From an uncultured Chlorobiaceae bacterium (GTDB taxonomy: Bacteria > Bacteroidota > Chlorobiia > Chlorobiales > Chlorobiaceae), in the NCBI GenBank assembly GCA_903871235.1, contig CAIQGA010000151.1:1-43558 (forward strand): 43,558 nucleotides of DNA. Direction: 5' to 3'. Shown one piece after another: positions 35,995-43,558 of the stretch. Position numbers and translations under genes: made by a program. Positions within the stretch are counted from its first letter, which is position 1, and each line of letters begins with the position of its first letter. The notes under the pieces are model-generated. The model was given only the letters and a program-made list of their open reading frames with translations, was not told where the DNA came from and searched no databases.

Positions 35995-38939
35995 TAATAG
36001 CCAAAAATATCCTTCAGCGAAAGCTCTTTCACGGTGCCATACTTCTTCAGGGTTTTCATGTCAAGCTCCTTTTTCTTGCCAAGCACCAGCATGACATGTT
36101 TTTTGTTCCTGAAATGGTCATTGTGAAATTTTTCAATATCGGCCAGGGTGAACCGGGCCGCTTCACGATAAATATCCCTCCTGATATCATGGTCGTGCCC
36201 CAGTCGGACAGCCTCTTCGTAATTGAAAAGAATCTCTGTTCTCGTCAGCCGCTCGGTTGAAATTTTCTGCAGAATGCCGTTTTGGGCCGAAGCAAAAAGT
36301 TCGGGTGATTCAGGCAGCTTGTTCATCAAAATGCTGATACCATCGAGCGCTTCGGGCAGTTTGTCGGCCTGGGTACCGATATAGCTGACAATATAGTTGT
36401 GCTCATCCTTCTGTTTCGGCGTTTTGTAGACCGAAAAAACAGAGTAGGCGAGCGCTTTGGCTTCGCGCAGCTCCTGGAAGACGACGGACGACATCCCGCC
36501 TCCGTAATATTCGTTGAAGAGGGTGGAGAGGGGGAGTATGGACGGATTGTAGAGCTGATCCCTTGTCATGAGAATGACCTCCGCCTGGGTCATATCGTAA
36601 TTGACGACATAGACAAGATTCTCCTGCTGCTCAAGATCATGGAACGGGTCGCTGACCGGTGGTGTCTTGAACGACTCGGGGTAATGGCGTACCGAACGCA
36701 ATTCACTGAGCACCTCCGTTGACGTTGCAGGGCCGTAGTAGAGCACCCTGTGCTTGTATTGCAGGAGGTTGTGCACTTCATCAAGCAGCTCTTTTGAGGT
36801 GACTTTTTCAAGCTCCTTATTGCTGAGGATGTTGGTGAAGGGCGAAGATGGACCGTATTTGCCATAATTGGTCATTGCCTCAAAGAGAATCTTCTTCTTG
36901 GCCAGCTTGGCATCGGTACGCTCTTTCAGTGTACCGGCTTTCAGCTTTTCAAGCGCCTCCTTGTCGGGTTTTGCATCAACAAGAAGATTTTCAAGCAGTC
37001 GAATGGCGGCAGCGGAGTTTTTCTGAAGTCCCGAAAGCTTCAGGTAGACGTAATCGTCAGACGTAAATGCCGAAAAGCTTGCGCCGATCTTGTAGAGCTC
37101 CTGGCTGAATTCAGCAGGAGTAAGATCGCCAGCTCCGAGATAGGAGAGGTATTCGAGGGCAAGCTCGATTGTTTTGCTGTTGTTTTTTCCGATATCGAAA
37201 ACATAATAGAGCGAGAAGAGCTCGTTTTCGTTGTTCTGCAGATAGTTCAGCTTAATGGATGGATTGACATCAAAAAAACCGATATCTTTGGTATAGTCAA
37301 GAAAAACAGGCTCAGTTTTTTCGGATTTCAGCGCCAGAAGTTTTTCGGCAAACGGTGACGAACTGTTCCGGTTCATCTTCAGCGGAGTGATCGGTGGCTT
37401 CTGGATCTTCGTCTCGCTCTTGGGGGTACCGTGTTCCTTGTAGATCGCGACATAGTTCGAGCTGTAGTGCTTCCTGACAAATGCGACAAGATCCTCTTTG
37501 GTGATTTTCTGGAGACGCTCGAGCTGGATAACATGATCGGGCCAGGCCATACCCCAAACAAACGCATCAACGTAGGCTTCAACGCGCCCCCGATTGCTTT
37601 CATAGAGCTTGAGTTGCTCAATTTTCATATCATTGATTGCTGCTTCAAGCAGCCAGTCTGGAAACTTTCCCTCTTTGAGCAGTTCAATCTGCGTGAGCAG
37701 CATCTCCTTTACTTCGTCGAGGCTCTGGCCCTCTCTTGGTTTTCCACTCAGAATATGGGCGGAGTAATCTTTCATCATGATCAACATTGAACCGGCATCG
37801 AGTACCTTCTGCTGCTGGTTCAGGTTAAGGTCAATAAGGCCAGCGGTCTGGTTGAACAGTATCTTGTCGGTAAGCGTGATGTAATCGGCATCAGAGTTGT
37901 TGATTCCATTAAAGCGGAATCCGATAACGATCTCTTCCGATTCAGGCCCTTTTACCTTGATGACTTCAGGTTCAGTGATTGCATCTTCGACAGGCGGGGT
38001 AAAGTGAGGCACCTCTTTGGACTGAAGCACCGAAAACTTTTTGTCGATCAGTTTTATGGTTGCATCCGGATCAAAATCTCCGGCAATGCAGAGCGCCATG
38101 TTGTTCGGCACATAGTAGGTATGGTAGTAGTTGACGACATTGCGGATCGAGGGATTTTTCAGATGCTCCGCCTTGCCAATGGTGGTCTGGGTGCCGTAGG
38201 TGTGTTTCTTGAAAAGTCCGGCAAAAAGATTTTCCCATATTTTCCGGCTGTCACTGTCCATCGTCATGTTCTTCTCTTCATAGACGGTTTCGAGTTCCGT
38301 ATGAAAAAGCCTCATCACCGGATTGCGGAAGCGCTCTGCCTCCATGGAGAGCCACTGGTCGAGCTTGTTTGAGGGAATATCGTTGACATAGACGGTCTGT
38401 TCGACCCAGGTGTAGGCATTGGTGCCCTGAGCGCCGATTGAGCCCAGAATCTTGTCGTATTCGTTTGGGACGGTATAGGTTGCCGCCACGTTGGATATGC
38501 TGTCGATATCCTTGTAGATCGCCGCCCGTTTTTCTATATCTTCGGTAGCGCGGTACTGCTCATAGAGTTCAGAAATTTTTTCGAGTGCGGTGTGCTCTTT
38601 TGCATAGTCGAGAGAGCCAAGTGAATCCGTTCCTTTGAAGAGCATGTGCTCAAGATAGTGTGCAAGACCGGTGGTCTCCGCCGGGTCATTCTTGCTTCCT
38701 GCGCGGACGGCAATGGAGGTGTAGATTCTCGGTTCGTCATGGTAAGGGCTCATATAGACCGTCAGTCCATTTTTGAGCGTATAGATTCTTGTGTGGAGCG
38801 AGTCTCCGGGAACGGTTGTGTATGGATAAGGCTTCTCTTTGTTGATCATGGGTTTACAGGAAATTAAATGCAAAAAAAGTATCCCGATGGTGAATATGGG
38901 GATATGGCGCGTTATAACTCTTCGAAAAGTATCCGGCAT
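35994..38939 (-). CDS. M16-family metallopeptidase, putative lipoprotein
   Basis: This protein of about 981 residues belongs to the insulinase/pitrilysin (M16) family. The inverted zinc motif H-x-x-E-H is HYLEH (His94, Glu97, His98), with the downstream Glu in the conserved ETVYEEKNM stretch. Two inactive C-terminal M16 repeats follow, one with [16 protein letters not shown]. The N-terminus has a hydrophobic signal and a lipobox LISC (Cys28), so a lipid-anchored periplasmic protease is likely. The start is ATG 38939; TTG 38942 is one codon ahead. It is cotranscribed with the LptG/LptF-type gene, which it overlaps by one base. Confidence 0.92.
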
Positions 38940-39092
38940 CAAAAAAAAAAGATAATAATGGGATTAAAAGCGGAAAATTGCAACCGCCCTGAATGACCTT
39001 TTTTAAAAAGATGCTCTCAAAAGCCATCTGTTCAGGAGGGGCTTGCAAGGGATGGAGACAGTTTACGCCGTACCGGTAGATAATCATTGTGG

Positions 39093-39122
39093 AAGAACTA
39101 ACAAACAGCATTAATAGTTCTT
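39093..39122. promoter_or_regulatory. Inverted repeat upstream of uvrB
   Basis: AAGAACTA (39093-39100) and TAGTTCTT (39115-39122) form perfect eight-base arms around a 14-base centre, 54 bases before ATG 39177. The spacing suits a dimeric regulator binding site. The enterobacterial SOS box CTGT-x8-ACAG is not present, so a link to LexA is only a possibility. Confidence 0.45.
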
Positions 39123-39176
39123 TTGTAGGGCAGAAAGAAGGGAAGTGAAACAACTATCAAGTGCGGAGTGTTTTTT

Positions 39177-41231
39177 ATGCAGGTGAACGGGAGCGGAATA
39201 TATAATCTTGTCAGTCCTTACAGTCCGGCGGGTGACCAGCCGAAAGCCATTGACGCCCTTTGTGAAGGGGTTCGTTCGGGAAATCCCTGGCAGACACTGC
39301 TCGGTGTGACCGGGTCGGGAAAGACCTTTACCATTTCAAATGTTATTGCCCGTTTCGACCGGCCTGTTCTGGTGATGAGCCATAACAAGACCCTTGCCGC
39401 GCAGTTGTATGGAGAACTCAAACAGTTTTTTCCCGACAATGCGGTCGAATATTTTATAAGTTATTACGATTTTTATCAGCCCGAAGCCTATCTCCCTTCT
39501 CTCGACAAGTACATCGCCAAAGACCTGCGCATCAACGACGAGATTGAGCGGCTCCGGCTCAAAGCGACCAGCTCTTTGCTCAGTGGCCGGAAGGATGTTA
39601 TTGTGGTGAGCTCTGTCAGTTGCATTTACGGTCTCGGCTCTCCTGAAGACTGGAAAGCGCAGATTATCGAACTCCGCTCCGGAATGGAAAAAGATCGCGA
39701 TCTCTTTTTGAAGGAGCTGATTGCTCTCCATTACATCCGCGATGATGTTCAGCCAACTTCCGGGAAGTTTCGCGTCAGGGGGGATATCATTGACCTTGTG
39801 CCCGCACATGAAGAACTTGCCCTCCGCATTGAGTTTTTTGGCTCTGAAATCGAAAGTATCCAGACCTTTGACATTCACAGCGGAGAGGTGCTCGGTGTTG
39901 AACGATATGCCTTTATCTATCCCGCCCGGCAGTTTGTCGCTGACGAAGAAAAACTCAAGGTGGCGATGCTCTCCATTGAAAATGAGCTGGCGGAGAGGTT
40001 GAACTATTACCGTGACGAAAACCGCTTTCTCGAAGCACGCAGAATTGAAGAGCGCACCCGCTATGACCTTGAAATGATGAAAGAGCTTGGTTACTGTTCC
40101 GGCATTGAAAATTACTCAAAGCATCTTTCGGGCCGTCCTTCCGGAGAGCGCCCCTGCTGTCTGCTCGATTATTTCCCTTCAGACTACCTTGTTGTCGTTG
40201 ATGAATCGCATGTGACGCTGCCGCAGATACGGGGGATGTACGGCGGAGACCGCTCCCGTAAAAACATTCTGGTGGAGCATGGATTCCGGCTCCCTTCGGC
40301 GCTCGATAACCGTCCGCTCCGTTTCGAGGAATTTGAGGCTATGGTGCCGCAGATTATCTGTGTCAGTGCCACTCCGAGTGACCATGAACTGCTCCGTTCC
40401 GGTGGCCTGGTGGTCGAGCAGCTTGTTCGCCCTACCGGCCTGCTTGACCCTCCGGTAGAAGTTCGTCCTGTGGCAGGTCAAATCGACAACCTTCTGGCTG
40501 AAATTCGTCTCCACACCGCAAAAGGCCATAAAGTGCTGGTCATGACCCTGACCAAAAGAATGTCGGAAGATCTGCACGACTTTTTTAGAAAAACGGGGAT
40601 TCGTTCGCGCTACCTGCACTCGGAGATCAAGAGCCTGGAGCGGATGCAGATTCTCAGGGAACTCCGGGTGGGAGATATTGATGTGCTTGTCGGGGTCAAC
40701 CTGCTTCGTGAAGGGCTCGATCTTCCTGAAGTATCCCTCGTGGCCATTCTTGATGCCGACAAGGAGGGCTTTTTGCGCAACACCCGTTCGCTGATGCAGA
40801 TTGCCGGCAGGGCCGCCCGCAACCTTGACGGATTTGTGGTGCTTTATGCCGATGTTATCACCCGCTCCATTCGTGAAGTGCTTGATGAAACCGCAAGACG
40901 TCGCACCATTCAGCAGCAATACAACGAAGCGCATGGCATTACTCCCCGTTCTATCACCAAATCGGTTGACCAGATTCTCGACACCACCGGCGTGGCCGAT
41001 GCGGAGGAACGTTACCGCCGGAAGCGTTTCGGTCTTGAGCCCAAGCCGGAGAGGGTGCTATCCGGCCTTCTCGACACGTTGACACCCGAAGCAGGCTACG
41101 CAATGGCCGCAGAACTCCGGCTTGAAATGCAGGAGGCCGCAGTCCAGATGGAGTATGAAAAGGCGGCCTATTTGCGTGACGAAATAACAAAACTTGAAGA
41201 GGCGCTGCAAAAACTGCCAACTGTGGAGTGA
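39177..41231 (+). CDS. uvrB: Excinuclease ABC subunit B
   Basis: This 684-residue UvrB is the damage-verifying helicase of nucleotide excision repair. Walker A is GVTGSGKT (43-50); the DNA-clamping beta-hairpin region has [10 protein letters not shown]; the helicase box is VVVDESHVT; motifs V/VI contain [16 protein letters not shown] and [12 protein letters not shown]. The C-terminal UVR domain ([25 protein letters not shown] region) is complete. The start is ATG 39177, with GGAG (39165-39168) eight bases upstream; GTG 39168 would add three residues. It is convergent with the glycosyltransferase gene at 41266 and divergent from the M16 gene. Confidence 0.98.
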
Positions 41232-41265
41232 GTTTAGTGTTGCCCTGTGAGAGACAACGCTTAAT

Positions 41266-43558
41266 TCATGTCGGCAAGCCAGGGAGACTCGTTTCCATAT
41301 CTGCACCGACACGGGCAAGCACACTCTCCCAGTCGCCAATTTTTGATTGCCGGTAGAGTTTTACACTTTTGTACCAGGGGCTGTCGTCTCTGTTGAGTAA
41401 CCAGCGCCAGTCCGGAGAGAATGGCAGCAATATCCAGGTCGTTTTACCCATTGCTCCGGCTACATGAGCAACGCTGGTATCGACAGTTATGATGATATCC
41501 ATAAGCTCACAGAGCGCAGCCGTATCGGTAAAGTCATGCAACTCATTGCCAAAATGAAGAATGGCCGGGTTGGACTCAAGCGTTGAACGGTCAATGTCGC
41601 GCACCTCTTTTTGCAGGCTTACATACTGACACGGTGAGGGTAGTTTTCCTATAATATCCGCAAGCGGGATGCTTCGGTTATGGTCATTCTGGTGTATTGT
41701 ACCGCCGCTCCATACAAGCCCGACACGCGGTTTATTCCGCTCACCCAACCTCTTTGCCCAATATGCCAGTTTGTCGGTATTGCTTCGCAAGTATTTTTCA
41801 GAAAAGGGAATAGAATGCAGGTCGGTTTTAAACGCCAACGGCAAGCTTAATAAAGGGCAGTGATAGTCGAAGGGGGGGAGCGCGCTGTCTTTGGCAATTA
41901 CATCCGCAACACCGGCAAGTTCCTGAAGCAAGCCGATGAGCGGTGGTTCCACTTCAAGAATGACCCGGTCGCATACATCAGCAACAGAGCGGGCATAGCG
42001 GCAAAACTGAATGGTGTCTCCAAGCCCTTGTTCGCTGTGCAGAAGAATGGTTTTACCCGCAAGCGATTCTTTTCCTGACCAGAGTGGTTGTGGAAAGTTT
42101 CTCTTTAAAGATGTAAACGTTTCTTTTTTCCATCTCCATTCATACAGCTCCCAGCCATTCTCAAAGTTCCCGTCAAGGAGCAGCGCAACTGATTTGTTCC
42201 AGTACGCATCAGCGTAGTCAGGCTTCAGTGCGATGGCTTGATTATAACTGGAAATAGCACTATCAAGTTTCCTGAGTTCCCTGAGTACAACTCCACGGTT
42301 GCAGTATGCCTCAGCGTAGTCAGGCTTCAGTGCGATGGCGTGGTCATAATTCGCCAGAGCGTCATCAAATTGCTTCAGTTCTTTGAGCGCATTCCCCCGG
42401 TTGTTGTAAAAAGCCGCATTGCCGGGGTGGATGGCAATGGCTTTGCCAATTAAGTCCACCCCCGTTTGGTAATGATGTGTCTGGGATGCTATAACCCCTG
42501 CAAGATGCAGCGCATCAAAATGCCCTGGCTGCGATTGCAGTACCTCTTCGTAGAGTAGTTGAGCCTGTGCCAACTGACCGCTCTGGTGAAGTCGCAGGGC
42601 TTGCTGAAACTTTCCCTGCGTTTGTGCGGCCAGAGCCGTTGTCGCAACATTTAGATCTGACATGAATTTGGCTGGCAGGCAGGGTTCGGTTTTTTCCAAA
42701 TCCGCCCCTGCATTGGTAACTGGTATTGCTGGTTTACGATTGCTTGTCGATACATGTTTTGAGCCCTCTGTTTGTGGCAACGACACAAGATGCTCAGGCG
42801 GCAGCCCTTCCTGATAGCGACCATACATCGCAGAAAAAACATCTTCGATGTGCCGGGTAAAGAGTTGCGTGTCAAACAGAGGTGTTATCAGGCGGTTACG
42901 CTCCAGTTTTTGCCGGATCAGCCTCAACTTTTCCGGATTGGTGGCAAGCTCAATGGCAAGAGCCTCGTACCCTTCCTGTGTGGAGGTGACAAGTTCAGGC
43001 AAATGAATGGCATGAAGCAGACTTGCCGCCACCCTGCTCGCAAAAGATTCGCCCATGCAGGTTAATACCGGCAATCCTGCCCACAAGGCGTCACTTGCTG
43101 TTGTATGGGCATTGCACGGCAGGGTGTCCAAAAACAAATCTGCCAGGCGGTGCCTTGCGAGATGTTTCGGGAGCGACATCCGTTGTGCAAAAACAAGCCT
43201 CTCAGCGTCAACACCCCGTTCAGTTGCCTCCTTCCGCAAATTGTTTGTGGCATTCACGTTATCCTTCAAAAGCCAGAGCACGCTTCCCTCTGTCTGCTTG
43301 AGAATCCGCATCCAGCCGTCAAAGGTGGCGGGAGTAATTTTGTAGTTGTTGTTGAAACAGCAGAAAACAAAACCGGTTTCAGGTAAGCCAAGCTCTTTGC
43401 GGGTGAATACCTTGTCGGCAATACGGCGCTGGCTGTCGTTCACCTGATAACAATCGGGCAGATATGCGATTTTTTCAATGTAACCCTGCCTGCTGCTCTC
43501 CGGAATCACGGTTCGGTCAGCAATGAGATAGTCAATATACTCCGCACTCATGGTGCCC
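41266..43558 (-). CDS. GT41 (O-GlcNAc transferase-type) + TPR + GT9-like fusion protein, partial
   Basis: At least 764 residues are in the window and the frame stays open past base 43558: the codons ahead of ATG 43551 read G-T, as in the GY-PGT segment of O-GlcNAc transferases, so the true start is outside. The visible order is the C-terminal half of a GT41 domain (AEYIDYLIADRTVIP, FCCFNNNYKITP, then DLFLDTLPCNAHTTASDALWAGLPVLT, about 1-265), a linker, TPR repeats (about 305-455), and a C-terminal GT9-like domain (about 490-755) with LLHSEQGLGDTIQFCRYA, RVGLVWSGG and VDTSVAHVAGAMG. It probably glycosylates proteins or polysaccharide at the cell surface. The stop is 34 bases from the convergent uvrB stop. 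Confidence 0.88.
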   Translation of the reverse strand, partial: GTMSAEYIDYLIADRTVIPESSRQGYIEKIAYLPDCYQVNDSQRRIADKVFTRKELGLPETGFVFCCFNNNYKITPATFDGWMRILKQTEGSVLWLLKDNVNATNNLRKEATERGVDAERLVFAQRMSLPKHLARHRLADLFLDTLPCNAHTTASDALWAGLPVLTCMGESFASRVAASLLHAIHLPELVTSTQEGYEALAIELATNPEKLRLIRQKLERNRLITPLFDTQLFTRHIEDVFSAMYGRYQEGLPPEHLVSLPQTEGSKHVSTSNRKPAIPVTNAGADLEKTEPCLPAKFMSDLNVATTALAAQTQGKFQQALRLHQSGQLAQAQLLYEEVLQSQPGHFDALHLAGVIASQTHHYQTGVDLIGKAIAIHPGNAAFYNNRGNALKELKQFDDALANYDHAIALKPDYAEAYCNRGVVLRELRKLDSAISSYNQAIALKPDYADAYWNKSVALLLDGNFENGWELYEWRWKKETFTSLKRNFPQPLWSGKESLAGKTILLHSEQGLGDTIQFCRYARSVADVCDRVILEVEPPLIGLLQELAGVADVIAKDSALPPFDYHCPLLSLPLAFKTDLHSIPFSEKYLRSNTDKLAYWAKRLGERNKPRVGLVWSGGTIHQNDHNRSIPLADIIGKLPSPCQYVSLQKEVRDIDRSTLESNPAILHFGNELHDFTDTAALCELMDIIITVDTSVAHVAGAMGKTTWILLPFSPDWRWLLNRDDSPWYKSVKLYRQSKIGDWESVLARVGADMETSLPGLPT
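42209..42339 (-). repeat. Perfect 29-base repeat inside TPR region, 102-base period
   Basis: The 29 bases at 42209-42237 recur identically at 42311-42339. The 102-base offset equals one 34-residue TPR unit and codes for AIALKPDYA on the minus strand. Identity at DNA level indicates a recent unit duplication or gene conversion. Confidence 0.8.

Follow-up and report, generated by a model that had tools for sequence, protein, structure and literature searches.

Two glycosyltransferase types in one TPR-containing chain at a Chlorobium contig end: a candidate multi-module protein glycosyltransferase

The gene that runs off the end of the contig analyzed here encodes one chain with two glycosyltransferase (GT) domains of different types, an OGT-type GT41 domain and, after a TPR region, a closing GT9-like domain. 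Based on homology and gene context, we propose, at a probability of about 0.6, that it forms the C-terminal portion of a cytosolic Chlorobium enzyme, built of several modules, that glycosylates proteins; its client would likely be an exported surface protein. The window, that is, the whole stretch of 43,558 nucleotides that was analyzed, is the complete contig C151 of the 234-contig assembly of an uncultured Chlorobiaceae bacterium (G000). The frame holds 763 stop-free codons at 41269-43557 on the minus strand and is closed by a stop codon at 41266-41268 (Table 1).

Table 1. Features of the contig end that bears the two-domain glycosyltransferase gene
Feature	Position	Strand	Basis and remarks
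3' part of TPR-glycosyltransferase gene	41266..43558	minus	ORF list; 763 codons, 5' end open at contig end 43558
C-terminal half of GT41 catalytic domain, aa 1-249	42811..43557	minus	Pfam PF13844, own profile, alignment to XcOGT 2vsn/2jlb and fly OGT 5a01
Linker between modules, aa ~250-303	42649..42810	minus	lies before stretch resembling N-termini of stand-alone TPR-GT genes
TPR region, aa ~304-474	42136..42648	minus	Pfam, own profile, predicted model
GT9-like GT-B domain, aa 475-754	41296..42135	minus	own profile, predicted fold, EQGLGD (D514) and DTSVAH (D693, H698)
uvrB, convergent neighbor, synteny anchor outside the enzyme	39168..41231	plus	named by eye

The GT41 assignment is carried by a Pfam match of the window protein to Glyco_transf_41 (PF13844) with an E value of 1.2e-58 (199.1 bits, cut-off 25; strongest over aa 50-236) and by an alignment of residues 1-233 to XcOGT (E 3e-53), in which the YK and HTT motifs are kept. 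K73 (the Lys of FNNNYK) and HTT align with XcOGT and are presumably the nucleotide-sugar-binding Lys and the HTT motif of such enzymes. Several Pfam TPR models match the window protein across aa ~316-464, where our own profile counts three repeats and the predicted model shows ten helices, i.e., five helix pairs. For the closing domain, Pfam gives Glyco_transf_9 (PF01075) an E value of 0.015 and 15.1 bits, below the cut-off of 22, and for this reason we call it “GT9-like”; comparable modules at two other loci exceed that cut-off (L152, 22.8 bits; L084, 63.5 bits). The motif QGxGD is invariant in 43 aligned rows, and the E before it is nearly so; the GxGD motif is shared with WaaC and WaaF. No NCBIfam model scored above its cut-off for the window protein, and Rfam gave 0 matches over 38900-43558.

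A search of PDB chains with a profile of the GT9 domain only (A2) returned one chance row (E 0.87) and was uninformative, so a fold search was needed. The predicted TPR-GT9 part (module aa 300-757) has a pLDDT of 95.2 and a pTM of 0.91, and the GT domain alone (the last ~285 residues) has a pLDDT of 90.6 and a pTM of 0.89. When the TPR was included, the fold search was filled by OGT/SPY and TPR chains. The GT9-like model by itself matched the GT9 structure 3tov best (Z 19.5, rmsd 2.7 over 246 residues), then WaaF 1psw (Z 18.0, rmsd 3.1 over 243), WaaC 2h1h (Z 17.3), and TibC 4rap (Z 16.1), with UDP-GlcNAc 2-epimerase as the next kind of enzyme (Z 13.2); Foldseek ranked the same kinds of structure first. 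The model thus confidently predicts a GT9-type GT-B fold for the closing domain. The first-pass annotation had described a heptosyltransferase-like end of the protein and had proposed structure prediction as a check; the predicted fold bears the description out, and the Pfam sequence score falls short of it. Chains of the plant chloroplast NDH-PSI complex (7wff_a, 9grx_1, and 7f9o_6) also match this fold (Z 15.3 to 16.5), hinting that an NDH subunit may derive from such a glycosyltransferase.

A further claim of that annotation, that TPR repeats follow rather than precede the GT41 domain, turns out to be an effect of the contig edge. The frame has no 5' boundary within the contig, our 442-position GT41 profile is matched only from 194 to 442, and the first in-frame ATG lies inside the catalytic domain and is not a start; the N-terminal GT41 half, and anything before it, is beyond the contig end, and this truncation produces the odd order. 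TPR precedes every complete GT41 module in relatives.

Where is the missing part? GT41 domains occur on five contigs of the window's genome (C12, C151, C158, C189, and C224), and four of these contigs end inside such genes. In 11 of 13 other genomes, uvrB is directly followed by a ~741-codon RelA/SpoT-like ORF and LemA/TPM-like ORFs, without a GT gene; in the other two (G015 and G005), other genes occupy the site. (uvrB, the 741-codon ORF, LemA, TPM, and purD were named by eye only.) Contig G002:C63 has an intact 892-codon TPR-GT41 gene between uvrB and the RelA-like ORF, on the opposite strand. In the window's genome, this arrangement is split between two contigs, with uvrB on C151 and the RelA-like ORF on C158, and both contigs carry a GT gene fragment whose orientation fits; the fragment on C158 encodes TPR-GT41. 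The N-termini of the C158 and G002:C63 proteins are 64% identical over 258 residues, with a start unlike that of the other paralogues, and in the GT41 tree, the C151 half groups with G002:C63 (98/94). Taken together, the synteny, the orthologous N-termini, and the tree point to C158 as the other side of the gap. Where C158 and C151 overlap (GT41 positions 194-425), they are only 81% identical, which indicates two module copies rather than one. Based on these comparisons, it is strongly supported that the missing N-terminal part lies on C158 and that the protein begins TPR-GT41, with at least two GT41 modules before TPR-GT9; the full gene would probably read TPR-GT41-(gap)-GT41-TPR-GT9, and have a length of no less than 684 + 763 codons, not counting the gap. 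The upstream extension proposed in the first-pass annotation would then be supplied by C158, across an inferred join. As a separate observation, G006:C55 (L069, 1696-3921) carries the RelA/SpoT-like gene that lies downstream of uvrB as two frames of 497 and 244 codons, through a frameshift or as a pseudogene.

The end of C12 stops 20 codons short of the start of C151, and a C12-C151 join, giving TPR-GT41-TPR-GT41-TPR-GT9 beside an export operon, is possible. As the sole or first-choice join, it was dropped because of the uvrB/RelA-like synteny, the N-terminus shared by C158 and G002:C63, and the GT41 tree; C12 more likely continues into C189 (the purD side), as G019 contigs C384 and C268 suggest. 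With either partner, GT41 is preceded by TPR.

The fusion of the two GT types recurs elsewhere. We scanned one genome per species (84,980 species) with a profile of the GT9 module and examined the best 79 of at least 578 confirmed loci; frequencies among these 79, several of which are short, describe this set and not all bacteria. GT41 and GT9 share one frame at 3 of the 79 loci. One of these, from an uncultured proteobacterium (L152), is an intact 1,380-codon TPR-GT41-TPR-GT9 frame to which window residues 1-755 align at 48% identity over 774 residues, unbroken at the junction. The second, from a Methylococcales MAG (L084, 1544-14896, on a 49-kb contig), has 4,451 codons and seven modules, (TPR-GT41)x3-(TPR-GT9)x3-TPR-GT41. 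The third, from an uncultured Chlorobiaceae MAG (L086), is open at its 5' end and reads GT41-TPR-GT9-TPR-GT41-TPR-GT41 over 2,030 codons. All three are MAGs, and each could be doubted singly; as three unrelated assemblies, they cannot share one error. At 11 further loci of the 79, GT41 lies in a separate frame, and at 65 TPR-GT9 stands without GT41 in the stretch examined. The 14 loci at which the two types co-occur are all titled MAG; in this analysis, the isolates with both types are those that carry the Azospirillum and Burkholderia plasmids, where the genes are separate. On two Azospirillum plasmids, the end of the TPR-GT9 gene overlaps the start of the TPR-GT41 gene by 4 bp, and in Burkholderia glumae, TPR-GT9 and TPR-GT41 genes lie in a row ~5 kb from a YadA-like gene. 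Among the matches listed for 40 relatives (24 of the genus), none has both domains in one frame.

For 50 of the best 79 loci (the first 50 distinct handles), GT41 domains were counted genome-wide; 8 of these loci contain a GT41 domain versus 0.61 expected, an expectation obtained by halving the domain matches to approximate gene numbers, with genome sizes rounded and placement taken as even. General clustering of glycan genes could explain part of this excess.

How did the chains arise? The GT9 module nearest to that of the window belongs to a stand-alone 711-codon TPR-GT9 gene (G011:C95), and the two domains are sisters (97) in a FastTree phylogeny of 119 GT9 domains with local supports only (identical rows and L053/L054, copies of L088/L082, were omitted). 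In this tree, the six rows from fused chains imply four label changes, of which well-supported branches force three or more; the scatter of the fused rows indicates that fusion has happened more than once or has been undone repeatedly. Just past the GT41 domain and linker, window residues 304-459 are 63% identical to residues 13-168 of the stand-alone G002:C63 protein. This likeness to the N-terminus of a stand-alone gene points to the in-frame fusion of whole TPR-GT genes, a route of module joining that the sequences strongly support. Arrays of a single type are also found: (TPR-GT41)x4 in 3,517 codons (G023:C79, L043, 8349-18899), (TPR-GT41)x3 in 2,186 codons (G023:C80), three or more TPR-GT41 modules in G019:C384 and G002:C8, (TPR-GT9)x2 in G016:C27, G014:C7, and G007:C44 (Chlorobium ferrooxidans DSM 13031, assigned to the same genus as the window's genome, with a 1,057-codon ORF), and a Rhodospirillales (TPR-GT9)x4 frame open at the contig end (L081, 4556-12532). 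A Rhodospirillaceae MAG has six tandem TPR-GT9-like frames, several of which overlap as stop-to-stop frames (L127, 2162-15006).

Known systems resemble single modules of these chains. The bacterial OGT homologues (XcOGT, 2jlb; T. terrenum OGT, 5djs) and eukaryotic OGT/SPY have TPR followed by GT41, as in the modules of relatives, but carry a single catalytic domain per chain, whereas here there are several TPR-GT modules, one of them of another GT fold. For the GT9-like module, a parallel in layout is FlmG, the flagellin glycosyltransferase of Caulobacter crescentus, which has TPR (1-313) and then one ~290-residue GT-B domain (309-596); its TPR part binds flagellins, FlmG is needed for flagellin glycosylation, and the GT part alone shows no flagellin binding and insufficient modification (PMC7591256). 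In a family sample of Caulobacteraceae, 55 of 60 genomes have matches to the GT9-module profile. Three inspected loci have a ~600-codon TPR-GT9-like frame beside flbT, one of them also with flaF and flagellins, and four flagellar-locus frames match the profile at 85 to 111 bits, without the DTSxxH motif. Because these frames match the profile, and as judged by genes in the same flagellar-locus context, FlmG is probably a distant relative of the GT9-like module. The FlmG-type genes differ in being stand-alone, distant in sequence, and free of both DTSxxH and a GT41 fusion, and flagellin gene context is absent at the window gene, which adjoins uvrB. In one Caulobacteraceae genome (L176, 6921-10522), two tandem TPR-GT9-like genes adjoin flbT, flaF, and flagellins.

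The autotransporter heptosyltransferases TibC/AAH (BAHT) likewise have a GT9-type GT-B fold and act on proteins; TibC has an N-terminal beta-barrel where the window protein has TPR helices, a dodecamer with an iron finger, and a single catalytic domain (PMC4358343). The HMW1C-like N-glycosyltransferases belong to GT41 and glycosylate a large exported adhesin, but they are N-linking, have one catalytic domain, and serve two-partner secretion. WaaC and WaaF are among the nearest solved folds and share the GxGD motif, at 11 to 14% identity; they lack TPR and act on lipid A-core.

In total, homology and gene context favor a protein glycosyltransferase that is cytosolic and multi-headed and whose substrates would be giant exported proteins. 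TPR-GT41 arrays sit directly behind an export operon in three genomes: that of the window (on C12), G011, and G023. As assembled from pieces scanned across the loci, this operon codes for a giant Big_9/cadherin-like repeat protein, OEP (an outer-membrane efflux protein), a rotamase of the PpiC kind, an ABC exporter with C39/cNMP domains, and HlyD; on G023:C79, type I secretion genes and the coding sequence for the C-terminal end of a Big_9 repeat protein directly precede the four-module frame. We propose an exported client because sister arrays in the same genome and genus follow such an operon; the link of the window gene itself, which lies next to uvrB and whose neighbors give no functional hint, is by paralogy. 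In a Chlorobiaceae MAG (L083, 756-11995), three separate tandem TPR-GT9 genes come after ABC- and HlyD-like frames and occupy the place that TPR-GT41 arrays take in other Chlorobium.

In the proposed mechanism, each module would consist of a TPR superhelix and one GT-B head, either OGT-type (GT41) or of the heptosyltransferase fold (GT9-like). The TPR blocks would hold the client polypeptide, as the TPR part of FlmG holds flagellin, and the adjacent heads would each transfer sugar to the held client, which would then bear modifications from two donor types. As the most likely client, we posit a large surface protein that would be glycosylated before its export by type I secretion. The suggestion of the first-pass annotation that a glycan is built directly on a protein is thus plausible, favored by homology and gene context.

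Several other readings of the same architecture deserve weighing. The two heads could act in sequence, with GT41 attaching an initial sugar to Ser/Thr that the GT9-like head then extends to a disaccharide at one client site. The joining of two different folds in one chain, and their encoding by overlapping genes in Azospirillum, suits this idea, as does the precedent of WaaC and WaaF, GT9 enzymes of LPS synthesis that extend glycans. However, each head has its own TPR block, the GT41 modules of L084 flank its GT9 modules on both sides, and TPR-GT9 without GT41 at 65 of the best 79 of at least 578 loci fits an enzyme able to find an acceptor by itself; we consider sequential action unlikely. 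Could the chain instead act on lipid-linked or free glycans of LPS or capsule, with TPR as an assembly scaffold? WaaF and WaaC are among the best fold matches, the Azospirillum pairs lie among polysaccharide-type genes (e.g., WavE and GT2/GT4), and sugar-nucleotide genes, identified by eye, flank the TPR-GT41 genes of G011:C50 and G023:C126, a context that would suit a polysaccharide role as well. Yet the GT41 enzymes of known function, to our knowledge, modify proteins, the protein heptosyltransferase TibC is nearly as close in fold, and there are no polysaccharide genes beside the window gene or beside the TPR-GT41 arrays of the export operon, all of which makes a surface polysaccharide synthase quite improbable.

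A dead or decaying fusion, with one or both heads inactive and the chain a TPR scaffold if anything, might be suspected from the incomplete GT41 half, whose N-terminal catalytic residues are off the contig, and from the separateness of the closest GT9 gene (G011:C95). Against this stand 763 codons without a stop, the retained motif residues, and differences concentrated at third codon positions (69/41/166 at positions 1/2/3 for the GT9 part versus G011 and 32/20/93 for the GT41 part versus G002), and we give decay very little credence. An assembly chimera, in which repetitive TPR sequence would have led to the merging of separate TPR-GT41 and TPR-GT9 genes, is barely credible: the fusion does lie at a contig end of a fragmented assembly in which paralogue contigs also end inside TPR-GT41 genes, but the longest exact match to the examined paralogue stretches is 35 bases, in the GT41 part and not at the junction, and the same order continues across the junction in L152, with L084 and L086 as further independent fusions. 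A frameshift was rejected as well, given a frame open throughout with third-position bias. The claim of two glycosyltransferase domains in one chain thus holds, with collinear fusions in independent genomes. The first-pass annotation had named an assembly join, a frameshift, or separate genes in relatives as grounds for doubt; the first two fell away, and the third was found for some relatives (G011:C95 and the Azospirillum plasmids), which does not in itself refute the fusion.

Returning to the protein glycosyltransferase that we favor, a bolder extension would be a class of giant modular polyglycosyltransferases, distributed among green sulfur bacteria and several lines of proteobacteria, that arose as whole TPR-GT genes of both GT types were fused time and again, giving chains with two to seven modules. 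How many modules there are, and in which order, might match the length and repeat pattern of one giant exported client, so that the enzyme would be a template-like ruler determining which repeat receives which sugar before type I secretion. We offer this as a long shot.

OGT-type and FlmG-type enzymes have been studied as single-headed protein glycosyltransferases in which TPR chooses the client. Single TPR-GT41 and TPR-GT enzymes are known kinds; for chains of up to seven modules that mix GT41 and GT9-like heads, and for GT41-GT9 fusions and multi-headed TPR-GT chains in general, our searches of open-licence PMC articles gave no publication, an absence that is weak evidence. The fusions, together with the overlapping gene pairs, suggest a functional link between the two enzyme families. 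Chains with two GT types offer a direct way to study the cooperation of catalytic heads with TPR modules, as well as the means by which bacteria might place more than one type of sugar on an exported protein.
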